12,019 nucleotides of DNA from Sphingomonadaceae bacterium. Lineage in GTDB: Bacteria > Pseudomonadota > Alphaproteobacteria > Sphingomonadales > Sphingomonadaceae. The position numbers and the translations under genes were made by a program. Below are positions 1,514 through 9,363 of the stretch, one piece after another (position 1 is the first letter of the stretch; each line of letters opens with the position of its first letter). The stretch spans positions 1 to 12,019 of the forward strand of contig JAGREF010000147.1 of assembly GCA_020446665.1 (NCBI GenBank). Direction: 5' to 3'. Under the pieces are notes generated by a model, which saw nothing but the letters and a program-made list of their open reading frames with translations, did not search any database and was not told the DNA's origin.

Positions 1514-2473
1514 TTAGGCTGCGAGTTGACCAGTCCGCCGATAGGTCAGGCGGCGTCCTGTGATGCCCTGCAAGGCTTTCTCGCAACGCTCAAAGTCGTT
1601 GTCCTTGCGGGTGTTGTAACGGAAGTCGAATTCCGTGCAGTAGCGGTGCAGATGGTTCGCACTAAGGTGATAATAGGTGCCCGTCACGCCGCGCTTGAGG
1701 ATCGAGAAATAGCCTTCAATCGTGTTAGTATGGAACGGGCCTCGCACATATTCATCCTTGCCGTGGTTCACCACTTCATGCGTGAAGTCGCGGTTCATGT
1801 GGCGATACTGGCCAGCATCATCGGTGCAAAGCGTAGAGGCCTTATCCACTTGCTCAACAAGGATCGGACGCAGATTGGCAGCCGTGACGCTTTGAACGTG
1901 AACGGAGCGAACCTTACCGTCGCGCTCGACTAGCGAAAACACAGTTTCCTTGCCCCAATTGCCGCCAAGGCGACGCTTTGCGCGCTTGCTCTTGTGACGG
2001 TTCTTTTCCTTGCCGCCAATAAAAGTTTCGTCCGCTTCCACGGTTTTGCCTTCGCCACCGAGAGGCGGTTCACCATCAGCAGGGCGCATAGCTTCACGAA
2101 TGCGGTGAGACATGAACCAAGCCGTTTTCTGCGTCACGCCGAGCATACGGGCAAGCTGGTGGCCAGACATGCCGCGCTTAGACGAGCAAAGCAGGAAGGT
2201 CGCCAGCACCCATTTGTTGAGCGCGATCTTGGAACGCTCAAACACTGTGCCGACCGTCACCGTGTATTGCTGGCGGCAATCGTTACACTGGACAACACCC
2301 TTGCGAACCGTGCCGCCGGGATGCGCCTTAGTTGCCTTGCGCTTCTGCGGGGGAAGCCGCGTAGCATTGAACGAGCCGCAATGCGGGCAATAGGGGCCAT
2401 CGGGCCAACGCAAGCCTTCAAGGTGCTCGCGGGCTGCGTCTACATCGGTGAAGCGAGGGTGTGTAATGTCCAT
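1514..2473 (-). CDS. IS1595-family transposase (319 aa)
   Basis: A DDE-type transposase that cuts and joins the IS ends. Visible parts in order: an N-terminal zinc ribbon with C-P-H-C (29-32) and C-N-D-C (63-66); a helix-turn-helix at about 101-129 (G-M-S-G-H-Q-L-A-R-M-L-G-V); the first catalytic Asp in V-E-A-D-E-T-F-I-G-G-K (D148); the second in L-C-T-D-D-A-G-Q-Y (D218 or D219); and the last motif H-T-N-T-I-E-G-Y-F-S-I-L-K-R-G (248-262), where N250 or E253 completes the site. Length is normal for the family and there is no frameshift, so it should be functional. The start lies 48 bp inside the right end. An exact TTGACA lies in the right terminal repeat at 2508-2503, reading toward the gene, but without a convincing -10. 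A small CAGCC/GGCTG hairpin spans the stop codon. Confidence 0.95.
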   Translation of the reverse strand: MDITHPRFTDVDAAREHLEGLRWPDGPYCPHCGSFNATRLPPQKRKATKAHPGGTVRKGVVQCNDCRQQYTVTVGTVFERSKIALNKWVLATFLLCSSKRGMSGHQLARMLGVTQKTAWFMSHRIREAMRPADGEPPLGGEGKTVEADETFIGGKEKNRHKSKRAKRRLGGNWGKETVFSLVERDGKVRSVHVQSVTAANLRPILVEQVDKASTLCTDDAGQYRHMNRDFTHEVVNHGKDEYVRGPFHTNTIEGYFSILKRGVTGTYYHLSANHLHRYCTEFDFRYNTRKDNDFERCEKALQGITGRRLTYRRTGQLAA

Positions 2474-2564: not shown

Positions 2565-2864
2565 TCAAATGAGCAAATCATAGAGATCAGACCAGTCGGG
2601 ATTGGCTCGCTCAATCAGCTCGAATTTCCATTCGCGGCGCCAGCGTTTGATCCGCTTTTCATGCGCGATGCAGTCTTCGATGGAATCACCTTGCTCCGCC
2701 CAGACAAGGCGATGCAAGCCATATCGCGCACAGAAATCCGAACCGCTGCTCTCACGATGCTGGAAGATACGAGCGGCAAGATCAGACGTCACGCCGACAT
2801 AGATCGTCCCGCGATAGCGGTCGGCCGTGATGTAAACCCAGCCACCCTTGCGCTTGCGATCCAT
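2565..2864 (-). CDS. GIY-YIG nuclease family protein (99 aa, URI-like)
   Basis: The GIY-YIG fold cuts DNA with a catalytic Tyr, Arg and Glu. Here the first motif is W-V-Y-I (9-12), the second I-Y-V-G-V-T (21-26), then R32 and H36 in L-A-A-R-I-F-Q-H. A later E69-K-R-I-K-R-W-R-R-E-W-K segment holds the presumed metal-binding Glu, and the end N-P-D-W-S-D-L is typical of the short UvrC-like (URI) subgroup. At 99 residues it is a complete single-domain protein with no added DNA-binding domain. All key residues are present, so it is probably active. Apart from the later IS, the gene is framed by two inverted copies of one palindromic repeat. Its start overlaps the end of the upstream membrane-protein ORF by 76 bp in another frame. 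The ribosome-binding site is weak. Role unknown; a repair nuclease or a selfish repeat-associated nuclease are both possible. Confidence 0.9.
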   Translation of the reverse strand: MDRKRKGGWVYITADRYRGTIYVGVTSDLAARIFQHRESSGSDFCARYGLHRLVWAEQGDSIEDCIAHEKRIKRWRREWKFELIERANPDWSDLYDLLI

Positions 2865-7178: not shown

Positions 7179-8114
7179 ATGCGAGCATTTGTTTTCCCGG
7201 GGCAGGGCAGCCAGAAAGTCGGCATGGGCAAGGAACTGGCCGATGCCAGCGCCGCCGCGCGCGAAGTGTTCGAGGAAGTGGACGATGCGCTGGGGCAGAA
7301 ACTCTCCGCTATCATGTTCGAAGGTCCCGAAGACCAGCTGACGCTGACCGAAAACGCGCAGCCCGCGATCATGGCCAATGCTATCGCCACTTTGCGCGTG
7401 CTGGAGCAGGAAGGCGGCATTGCGCTGGCGGATAAGGGCGATTGCGTCGCCGGGCATTCGCTGGGCGAATATACTGCCTTGTGCGCGGTGGGCGCTTTCT
7501 CGCTGGCGGATACGGCGCGGCTGCTCAAGCTGCGCGGGCAAGCGATGCAGGCTGCCGTTCCGGTGGGCGAGGGCGCGATGGCCGCGCTGCTCGGTGCTGA
7601 TCTGGAGAAAGCGCAAGCGCTTGCCGATGCTGCCGCCGAAGGGCAGGTGTGCGAAGTCGCCAATGATAATGACAGCACGCAGGTCGTGATCTCCGGCCAC
7701 CGCGAAGCAATTGAGCGGGCCGTGGCGCTGGTGAAGGATCACGGGATCAAGCGCGGCGTGTTGCTGCCCGTTTCCGCGCCCTTCCACTGCTCGCTGATGC
7801 AACCCGCCGCCGATGCGATGGCGGAGGCTCTGGGCAAGACTCCTCCGGGCGCCTTCACTCTGCCGCTCTATGCCAATGTCACCGCCGCGCAGGTGACCGA
7901 TCCGGCGCAGGAACTGGATCTGCTGGTGCAACAAGTAACCGGCCGTGTCCGCTGGCGCGAAAGCGTGCTCGCCATGCGCGCTGCAGGTATGGAACACTTC
8001 GTGGAACTGGGCGGCAAGGTGCTGGGCCCGATGATCGGCCGGATCGACAAGGAAGCCTCTGTGACCAGCGTGATAACGATGGAAGATATCGAGGCGCTGG
8101 CGAAGGAGATTTGA
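7179..8114 (+). CDS. fabD: Malonyl-CoA:ACP transacylase FabD
   Basis: It transfers malonyl from CoA to acyl carrier protein, the entry step of type II fatty-acid synthesis. At 311 residues it is of typical length. Motifs: F-P-G-Q-G-S-Q (6-12); the active-site Ser94 in G-H-S-L-G-E-Y (92-98); Arg119 in L-R-G-Q-A, which binds the malonyl carboxylate; and His203 in A-P-F-H-C-S-L-M. An AGGAG box (7165-7169) lies nine bases before the ATG, so the start is secure. In most proteobacteria fabG follows closely; here the 462-bp inverted-repeat unit with a nuclease gene lies between fabD and fabG, starting 10 bp after the fabD stop. It must alter or lengthen the shared transcript if the two are still co-transcribed. 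Confidence 0.97.
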   Translation: MRAFVFPGQGSQKVGMGKELADASAAAREVFEEVDDALGQKLSAIMFEGPEDQLTLTENAQPAIMANAIATLRVLEQEGGIALADKGDCVAGHSLGEYTALCAVGAFSLADTARLLKLRGQAMQAAVPVGEGAMAALLGADLEKAQALADAAAEGQVCEVANDNDSTQVVISGHREAIERAVALVKDHGIKRGVLLPVSAPFHCSLMQPAADAMAEALGKTPPGAFTLPLYANVTAAQVTDPAQELDLLVQQVTGRVRWRESVLAMRAAGMEHFVELGGKVLGPMIGRIDKEASVTSVITMEDIEALAKEI

Positions 8115-8124
8115 TTTATTGGGG

Positions 8125-8152
8125 CGCTCACAGAGGCACAGGGGCACAGAGG
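8125..8152 (+). repeat. Left inverted repeat of the GxxExxY unit
   Basis: CGCT followed by three tandem octamers, CACAGAGG, CACAGGGG and CACAGAGG. It matches the reverse complement of 8559-8586 at 26 of 28 bases. Its GGGG and last G serve as a possible ribosome-binding site and as the first base of the GTG start of the nuclease gene. Confidence 0.9.
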
Positions 8153-8544
8153 TGACTGGAGCAGAACGCGAAGAGCTTAACCGGTTGAGCGGCTTGGTTG
8201 TAGATCAATGCATTCGCATCCATCGCGATCTTGGCCCCGGATTGCTCGAGAGCGTGTATGAAACTGTGCTGGAAGGAGCGCTCCGGCGAGAGGGTTTGAA
8301 GGTGGCCCGGCAAGTGCCCGTTGATATTGAATATGACGGGATGAGCTTCAAGGCGGCATTCCGCATGGACATGCTGGTTGCAGATCGTCTGGTGCTGGAA
8401 ATCAAGTCAGTGGAAAAGCTCTCTAACTTGCATGCCAAACAATTGTTGACCTATCTGCGATTAACTCGGAGCCCTTTAGGGCTCCTGCTCAACTTCTCCG
8501 GCGAGACCATGAAAGAGGGTATTCGCCGGGTCATAGATATTTGA
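8152..8544 (+). CDS. GxxExxY-family protein, PD-(D/E)XK nuclease-like (130 aa)
   Basis: The name motif is G-L-L-E-S-V-Y (G30, E33, Y36), preceded by the usual N-R-L-S-G-L-V-V-D-Q-C-I-R-I-H-R-D-L-G-P. Further on, F-R-M-D-M-L-V (D73) and L-V-L-E-I-K-S-V-E (E83, K85), with a later Gln97, form the metal-binding core of the PD-(D/E)XK nuclease fold. All core residues are kept, so a DNA- or RNA-cleaving activity is plausible but unproven; the family's role is not established. I choose GTG 8152, which gives the usual family N-terminus, with GGGG seven bases upstream. A longer TTG start at 8119 would translate the repeat itself and is less likely. It lies between 28-bp inverted repeats, on the same strand as fabD and fabG. 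Confidence 0.88.
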   Translation: MTGAEREELNRLSGLVVDQCIRIHRDLGPGLLESVYETVLEGALRREGLKVARQVPVDIEYDGMSFKAAFRMDMLVADRLVLEIKSVEKLSNLHAKQLLTYLRLTRSPLGLLLNFSGETMKEGIRRVIDI

Positions 8545-8558
8545 TTTAGCGCTGAAAT

Positions 8559-8586
8559 CCTCTGTGCCTCCGTGCCTCTGTGAGCG
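8559..8586 (-). repeat. Right inverted repeat of the GxxExxY unit
   Basis: On the plus strand: CCTCTGTG, CCTCCGTG, CCTCTGTG, then AGCG. It is inverted to 8125-8152, with two differences in the middle octamer. It ends 13 bp before the GGAG ribosome-binding site of fabG. In a transcript the two repeats could pair into a long stem enclosing the nuclease gene. Confidence 0.9.
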
Positions 8587-8610
8587 TCCTAAGAATTTTG
8601 GAGAAATGAC

Positions 8611-9363
8611 ATGTTTTCGCTCGAAGGAATGACCGCCCTTGTTACCGGTGCCAGTGGTGGCATTGGGTCTTCTATCGCCCGTTCGCTGGCTTCGCAGGGG
8701 GCGCGGTTGGCGCTTTCTGGTTCCAATGCGGCCAAATTGCGCGCGTTCCGGGAAGAGCTGAATGACGAATATGGGCACGATCATGTGGAGATCACCTGCG
8801 ATCTGTCCAATGCCACGCAGGTAGAGGAACTGATCCCGGCCACCGTGGATACGCTCGGCAAGATTGACATTCTCGTCAACAATGCGGGCGTCACGCGCGA
8901 CAATCTCGCCATGCGGATTAAGGACGAGGAATGGGACGCGGTGATGAAGATCAACCTTGAGGCTGCCTTCCGCCTGATGCGCGCCAGCGCCCGCCCGATG
9001 ATGAAGGCGCGTTTTGGCCGCATCGTCACCATCACCAGCGTTGTCGGCGCGACCGGCAATCCGGGCCAGATGAACTATGCCGCAGCAAAGGCTGGTCTGG
9101 TCGGCATGACCAAGGCATTTGCGCAGGAAGTCGCCAGCCGCGGGATCACCGCCAATTGCGTCGCACCGGGCTTTATCCGCACGGCGATGACCGATGTTCT
9201 GCCCGATGCGCAGAAGGATGCGCTCAATGCCCGCATCCCCATGGGCCGCATGGGCGAGGGCGAAGATATTGGCGCTGCGGTGGCCTATCTCGCCAGCAAG
9301 GAAGCAGGCTATGTCACGGGCCAGACGCTGCATGTGAATGGCGGCATGGCGATGCTTTCCTGA
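8611..9363 (+). CDS. fabG: 3-oxoacyl-ACP reductase FabG
   Basis: An SDR enzyme that reduces 3-oxoacyl-ACP with NADPH in fatty-acid elongation. At 250 residues it is of typical length. Visible: T-G-A-S-G-G-I-G (12-19) for cofactor binding; D-I-L-V-N-N-A-G (86-93); the tetrad N115, S143, Y156 and K160 (N-Y-A-A-A-K); V-A-P-G-F-I-R-T for the following loop; and the C-terminal G-Q-T-L-H-V-N-G-G-M-A-M typical of FabG as opposed to other SDRs. GGAG at 8600-8603 lies seven bases before the ATG. With fabD it forms the fab locus. The usual next gene, acpP, is not in this window; dnaN follows on the same strand after 212 bp. Confidence 0.95.
   Translation: MFSLEGMTALVTGASGGIGSSIARSLASQGARLALSGSNAAKLRAFREELNDEYGHDHVEITCDLSNATQVEELIPATVDTLGKIDILVNNAGVTRDNLAMRIKDEEWDAVMKINLEAAFRLMRASARPMMKARFGRIVTITSVVGATGNPGQMNYAAAKAGLVGMTKAFAQEVASRGITANCVAPGFIRTAMTDVLPDAQKDALNARIPMGRMGEGEDIGAAVAYLASKEAGYVTGQTLHVNGGMAMLS

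Follow-up and report, generated by a model that had tools for sequence, protein, structure and literature searches.

GxxExxY nuclease genes between inverted arms of tandem heptamers, a candidate mobile unit with related gene-less palindromes

We analyzed a 12,019-nt stretch of DNA from a Sphingomonadaceae bacterium (contig JAGREF010000147.1 of assembly GCA_020446665.1), hereafter called the window, in which an intact gene of the GxxExxY family of PD-(D/E)XK nucleases lies within two inverted arms between the host genes fabD and fabG (Table 1). As an earlier note on this DNA had described, the arms are 28 nt long and match at 26 positions, each being made of CGCT and three octamers resembling CACAGAGG; a repeat finder stretches them to 37 nt, with 86% complementarity. 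The whole unit, consisting of an inverted arm, the gene, and an inverted arm, measures ~460-480 bp, and its single strand folds far better than shuffled sequences (z -5.5). When the left flank was aligned with the reverse-complemented right flank by the Smith-Waterman method, the locus scored 49, while the best of 422 same-size segments from other loci scored 34. The arms are therefore not due to chance. Of note, a 13-nt direct repeat (12/13) has one copy at the end of fabD (8106-8118) and the other at that of the GxxExxY gene (8536-8548), possibly by chance.

Table 1 Features of the window, with positions counted from its first nucleotide
Feature	Position	Strand	Remarks
IS1595-type transposase gene	1514-2473	-	PF12762, PF12760; close to the GIY-YIG gene
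Small GIY-YIG gene	2565-2864	-	Between inverted repeats like repetitive extragenic palindromes (REPs), arms 2524-2555 and 2869-2900 (CTTGATCCGGGGTCCCGC)
fabD	7179-8114	+	Upstream host gene; the element starts directly past its stop codon
Left arm	8116-8152	+	Core 8125-8152 = CGCT + CACAGAGG CACAGGGG CACAGAGG
GxxExxY PD-(D/E)XK nuclease gene	8152-8544	+	GTG start, 130 amino acids; alternative TTG start at 8119, 141 amino acids
Right arm	8559-8595	-	Core 8559-8586 = reverse complement of CGCT + CACAGAGG CACGGAGG CACAGAGG
GGAG	8600-8603	+	Likely replacement ribosome binding site of fabG
fabG	8611-9363	+	Host gene on the downstream side; separated from fabD by 2-3 nt, or overlapping with it, in many relatives

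The window protein belongs to TIGR04256 (127.3 bits, for a curated cut-off of 35) and matches PF13366 (130.3 bits). D73, K85, Q97, and G30 do not vary in an alignment of 15 relatives, and E33, Y36, and E83 hardly vary. The GxxExxY motif, by which members of the family are recognized, corresponds to G30, E33, and Y36; D73, E83, and K85 are putative catalytic residues, judging from the family. The structure predicted for the protein (predicted local distance difference test score, pLDDT, of 95) has PD-(D/E)XK nucleases as structural neighbors, and a Foldseek search with this model placed the catalytic domain of I-Bth0305I at rank 34 (E 0.79). The PF13366 match, the residues, and the model agree with the fold and the D and E-x-K motif of the PD-(D/E)XK superfamily, and the protein thus appears to keep its PD-(D/E)XK core, as had been claimed. 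It matched only PF13366 and TIGR04256 at E 0.001, with no sign of an HUH/Y1 tyrosine transposase, and a profile search of the window proteins detected no recombinase gene (DDE, serine, or tyrosine) within the unit, in line with the reported lack of a transposase. Neither mobility nor flanking arms nor palindromes dispersed in the genome are mentioned in the family descriptions given with the TIGR04256 and PF13366 matches.

The window's own genome (G000; 2.37 Mb, 448 contigs, 77% complete) encodes a second GxxExxY gene, likewise within inverted three-octamer arms that are spelled with other letters (CGCCAAGN), and a second genome of the same genus has one copy whose inverted arms show yet another, third spelling (CGCAGAGA CGCGGAGG). 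The arms of further loci were scored by the same flank alignment, and a locus was called paired at a score of at least 30. The loci comprised 30 from a 200-genome phylum sample (in which 33 genomes matched), 80 named loci, further loci of the family Sphingomonadaceae, and four extra regions. The named loci are the best 80 of at least 574 confirmed relatives from a scan of species genomes, and 79 were scorable, one flank being too short. Paired arms were found at 70 of these 79 loci (median score 48), compared with 4/422 same-size control segments and 206/790 combinations of left and right flanks from different loci. They were also found at 22/30 loci of the phylum sample and at 29/33 full-length loci of the family sample, and, over all sets, at 122 of the 144 GxxExxY loci with both flanks. 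The earlier note had asked whether GxxExxY genes elsewhere have such repeats, and this is the case at these 122 loci, 120 of which remain when identical proteins are removed. It should be noted that the two genome collections may overlap, so that a few loci were possibly counted twice (for example L100 and L171, with identical FabD and FabG).

The armed loci occur in 14 phyla. Arms were present at 41/41 loci of Pseudomonadota, 8/11 of Verrucomicrobiota, 6/8 of Thermodesulfobacteriota, 3/5 of Planctomycetota, 2/2 of Chloroflexota, and 1/2 of Gemmatimonadota, at one locus each in Cyanobacteriota, Myxococcota, Lentisphaerota, and five candidate phyla, and the sole locus of Bipolaricaulota was below the threshold. 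Many loci of this survey come from metagenome bins, and a record named Arthrobacter was excluded from the phyla as probably misnamed: its unit and its FabD and FabG (L089) are nearly identical to those of a Sphingomonas locus (L091).

Analysis of the arms showed that they are tandem heptamers, mostly CRCNRAG, with a period of 8-10. The most common spacings are 8 nt (277), 9 nt (74), and 10 nt (26), besides smaller or overlapping matches to the pattern. A single universal octamer was rejected, as letters and period vary among loci; the octamer array of the earlier note is thus shared as an architecture and not as one sequence. The left and right arms of a locus match each other better than they match arms of different loci, and pairing is therefore kept while the letters change. 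Mismatches between arms were evenly split between G-U compatible (117) and A-C (124) types, and this lack of G-U bias means that pairing is kept at the DNA level and is not explained by RNA. An RNA-level stem as the main cause was rejected on this even split, and window positions 7900-8800 had no Rfam match at E values of up to 1. The mismatch pattern also bears on the idea that GxxExxY belongs to the host, has a stem that serves cis-regulation or self-limitation (an operator or attenuator), and plays a housekeeping role in the processing of branched DNA or palindromes. We regard this as very unlikely, since it fits poorly with arms lacking a G-U bias, with a patchy distribution (19 of 119 family genomes over the cut-off), with scattered presence at the fabD-fabG site, and with the existence of dispersed gene-less copies (see below).

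We then compared the arm letters with a tree of 141 GxxExxY proteins, of which 115 were labeled for letters and 113 for period, taking the minimum of 200 shuffles as the comparison. Fewer changes than this minimum were required at heptamer positions 2 (12 versus 22), 4 (30 versus 36), 5 (14 versus 28), and 7 (3 versus 6), and for the period (14 versus 23). By this comparison, arm letters and period track the protein tree. Such covariation suggests that the nuclease recognizes the arms. Some clades of the tree mix phyla, which indicates that the gene and its arms have moved horizontally together; many forks lack resolution because the protein is short.

The boundaries of the unit were investigated by mapping where homology ends in 14 pairs of related copies, three of which have a site in common on one or both sides while 11 lie at different sites. 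In six of these 11 pairs (L243/L244, L168/L173, L168/L174, L122/L116, L122/L119, and L116/L119), DNA homology spans from outer arm end to outer arm end within ~8 nt, and the flanks beyond show no similarity (L116 has weak arms, with a score of 17, and a right flank of insufficient length for this comparison). L243 and L244 are two copies within one genome whose proteins are 84% identical. It is very probable that the unit moves as arm, gene, and arm.

The fabD-fabG site itself was examined in relatives by comparing 50 fabG loci from the 119 genomes (the 30 highest-scoring and 20 further ones), 44 of which have fabD adjacent. Five of these 44 junctions contain a GxxExxY gene, three contain another stretch of ~600 nt, and 36 have a short gap that measures 5-6 nt in 26 cases, counted between the start of fabG and the last codon of fabD that could be aligned. 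The empty junctions commonly carry AAGGAG within the fabD 3' end, likely the fabG ribosome binding site. Ten of the 119 family genomes have the gene at this place. The unit therefore does split two normally adjacent genes, as had been proposed, and the tight, empty junction of close relatives means that it is not found at the same place in all of them. In a tree of FabD and FabG with 77 rows, to which 33 further carriers had been added, occupancy changes 10 times, for a shuffled minimum of 19; the proportions of carriers in it mean nothing, because 28 named carriers were chosen for the gene and the non-carriers for likeness to the window fabG. In the window's branch of this tree, carriers lie among empties: L086 holds the unit at a place where 5 nt are found in the sister loci L038 and L045, and the carrier L124 retains the right-hand bases ATGGAACACCGC of the empty L064. 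Among 11 carriers of this branch, GxxExxY identity is uncorrelated with FabD/FabG identity (rho 0.14). Because carriers lie among empties and gene identity is uncoupled from that of its neighbors, it seems that the unit arrived at this junction on more than one occasion in this branch. Homing genes, too, present a site that is occupied in some relatives and empty in others.

Old vertical inheritance at fabD-fabG followed by many losses would account for the 38 loci that share this site and whose proteins form a single clade (support of 99 in the Shimodaira-Hasegawa-like approximate likelihood ratio test, SH-aLRT), for a Sphingomonas part that looks vertical, and for one candidate relic, a solo array at L067. 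We nevertheless consider it quite unlikely, as the losses would have had to restore the junctions of many empty relatives, which measure 2-3 nt or overlap and place the likely ribosome binding site of fabG within fabD, and as gene and fab identities are uncorrelated in the window's branch. The solo octamer array of L067 (G128; CGCCAAGA CGACAAGA) lies without a gene in the fabD-fabG gap of an otherwise empty relative and is perhaps a relic. The three other ~600-nt stretches were found in L036 (G001), L042 (G214), and L061 (G259), and the junction may be a general insertion place.

The unit does not stand alone: arrays and palindromes that consist of similar repeats but lack the gene tend to be present where a genome carries the gene. 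With an exact pattern of three heptamers of period 8, gene-less arrays were found in 16 of the 19 family genomes with the gene over the cut-off versus 12 of the 100 without it (Fisher 7.7e-10, a guide only, because the genomes are related). Since the genes' own arms fit the pattern, the places of the arrays were listed in nine of the 16 genomes, chosen for having few or unlisted arrays, and every one of the nine contains one or more arrays apart from its GxxExxY genes (one to three in G000, G224, G245, G248, G249, and G280, and more in G273, G285, and G310); the other seven genomes have more than two arrays per gene. All 16 genomes therefore hold gene-less arrays, and the possibility that the co-occurrence merely counts the genes' own arms was ruled out. 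Control arrays of the reversed pattern numbered 0 to 4 per genome. Among the genomes of the named loci, 30 were searched, corresponding to 30 of the 50 loci L116-L165 and nearly all from other phyla; 26 of them have arrays, with a total of 626 including the genes' own arms, compared with 17 for the reversed pattern. Two other contigs of G000 carry a total of three arrays of the exact pattern, whose letters differ from those of the window arms. In G252, 12 arrays form six inverted pairs, one of which holds the gene and five of which hold spacers of ~96-103 nt, and G302 has eight genes and 134 arrays, its palindromes being mostly ~68 bp with spacers near 22 nt (16 regions).

When seven genomes were considered together, assigning the dispersed arrays to the gene arms of their own genome gave the best fit of all 5040 possible pairings (mean identity 0.89 versus 0.81). 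As single strands, four gene-less palindromes had far more stable folds than shuffled sequences (z -6.2 to -10.9). Four palindromes lie within 19 kb of G302 that were aligned with two genomes of its genus, G313 (~75-85% identical) and G222. At two of the four palindrome sites, G313 has ~24 nt where G302 has ~320, and ~65 where G302 has ~226; G222 has a shorter, palindrome-free gap at the two sites compared in that genome. We infer that these shorter gaps represent the older, palindrome-free state; the extra DNA of G302 includes other, nested palindromes, and therefore the step is not always one element. The gene-less palindromes are very probably relatives of the GxxExxY unit.

The palindromes could instead have been spread by a REP-associated tyrosine transposase (RAYT), a GIY-YIG nuclease, or an insertion sequence (IS), the GxxExxY gene being a passenger that was captured between arms or landed there. 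The arrays of the 12 genomes without TIGR04256, and several palindromes of G302 and G263 that are nested with other palindromes, would fit such a history. We judge it unlikely, as arm letters follow the GxxExxY protein tree, the gene and the gene-less arrays co-occur (16/19 versus 12/100), and a passenger would have no need of the paired arms seen at 122/144 genes.

Several observations on the palindromes can be added. Insertion into the centers of palindromes is striking in G302, but it was rejected as a systematic trend because it is not general: outer flanks are paired (score of at least 30) at 8/39 gene-less palindromes versus 105/780 mismatched combinations, mostly from the same genome. 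Some palindromes are nested symmetrically in others, of the same and of REP-like kinds (L235, L236, and L247-L263). A spacer of ~93-103 nt is common to gene-less palindromes from several genera (L223-L230 and L232), often with a small palindrome like GCGGCGAAGCCGC by one or both arms. In L237, L238, and L240, from G201 and G290, array pairs face the opposite way, with their outer ends toward a short center; G201 has no TIGR04256 match, and G290 is absent from the listed genomes with a match. Finally, in a Roseiflexus bin (L118, apparently contig C296 of G315, matched by position only), the gene seemingly adjoins a run of octamer arrays that recur at intervals of ~90 nt.

Comparison of sequences thus reveals the architecture, several unit boundaries, the coupling of letters to lineage, the link to gene-less arrays, and the empty sites. 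On this basis, we think it probable, with some reserve, that the GxxExxY unit is compact and mobile, and that its nuclease, by acting on the palindromic arms around it, copies both the unit and the related gene-less palindromes, in analogy to RAYT-REP systems but with an unrelated enzyme. The earlier suggestion of a mobile or selfish nuclease unit is well supported as far as movement is concerned; that the nuclease is the mobilizer is a somewhat favored assumption. In this scheme, the nuclease would recognize the heptamer arms, either as duplex repeats or as the hairpin or cruciform that arms can form, and would cut there. Through repair or strand transfer, a copy of the unit, or of a gene-less palindrome with these arms, would then reach a new location, and the gene-less palindromes would act as non-autonomous partners of the unit. 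At fabD-fabG, one lineage of the unit would, like a homing gene, have invaded a single junction on at least two occasions in Sphingomonadales. A hairpin or homing type of mechanism is a tentative proposal.

A number of results weigh against this scheme. Cutting, arm recognition, and the copying route are inferred, and no event of cleavage or movement was seen. Homology ends short of an arm on at least one side in five of the 11 different-site pairs; one of these, L178/L191, has some right flank in common (190 nt), the flank comparison covering the short pairs other than L188/L173. Arms are below the threshold at 22 of the 144 loci, among them L170, which still shows arms, and L183, a 24-bit match. 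Arrays occur in 12/100 genomes without TIGR04256, the exact pattern detects none in 3/19 genomes with it, and five of the 16 positive genomes (G224, G245, G248, G249, and G280) have only one or two gene-less arrays. The dispersed arrays of G156 and G263 match the arms of another genome slightly better than their own, and at two of the four G302 palindrome sites G313 has other, longer sequence and no empty site. No target duplication was seen at fabD-fabG or at the palindrome junctions, few of which were readable. For 34 of the 38 carriers, GxxExxY identity follows FabD/FabG identity (rho 0.56, 561 pairs), and the fabD-fabG copy looks mostly vertical in the sampled Sphingomonas. With the window protein as the query, which distant members could escape, the gene was present in 6/72,556 plasmid records and was not found in phages (0/50,697 records). 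These counts, together with the single confirmed GxxExxY locus in viral contigs, do not support the unit as plasmid or phage cargo.

Homing endonuclease genes, including those of the PD-(D/E)XK type, are small and patchily distributed nuclease genes. The GxxExxY gene resembles them in size, patchiness, and apparently repeated entry at one site, but it is not located in an intron or intein, and it has long inverted arms and dispersed gene-less copies. Insertion sequences and miniature inverted-repeat transposable elements have terminal inverted repeats and short non-autonomous copies, as does the GxxExxY unit, which differs in encoding no DDE, serine, or tyrosine recombinase and in having internally repeated arms; no target duplication was seen at the few readable junctions. 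REPtrons (the RAYT-REP systems), REPINs, and TIRtrons are described as having a nuclease-type gene, an HUH/Y1 transposase, between inverted repeats, with gene-less dispersed repeats that often lie close together in opposite orientation and are also present in gene-free genomes (PMC3733652). The unit family shares with RAYT-REP systems a single nuclease-type gene between inverted repeats, dispersed gene-less copies that are often paired in opposite orientation, and repeats in genomes that lack the gene; it differs from them in encoding a PD-(D/E)XK protein and not an HUH/Y1 transposase, and in having arms of about three tandem heptamers with lineage-dependent letters, without a GTAG- or CGTC-tagged stem-loop. 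No account of GxxExxY genes with such arms was found among the open PubMed Central matches listed, and the listed papers that use this name do so in passing in the passages concerned. The arguments are about evenly balanced on whether this is a new class of bacterial mobile elements, present in 14 phyla, in which a lone PD-(D/E)XK nuclease mobilizes its own tandem-heptamer palindromes together with non-autonomous ones. If so, a probable role could be assigned to a protein family known only from the name of its motif, and a candidate partner enzyme to a large set of intergenic palindromes. The arms provide a directly testable nuclease substrate, and repeat letters that covary with nuclease lineage are a natural data set for DNA recognition.

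The small GIY-YIG gene of the window is arranged in a parallel way. Among GIY-YIG genes from the family genomes, 25/30 have paired flanks at the same threshold, versus 2/119 control segments, and mismatched flanks pair in 49/300 combinations. Many of these flanks hold a REP-like repeat that starts with CGTC, and the gene is a candidate partner of CGTC-tagged REPs. If both cases are true, several unrelated nucleases, and not RAYTs alone, would serve dispersed bacterial palindromes. G000 contains four GIY-YIG copies, including that of the window, which are 94-100% identical.
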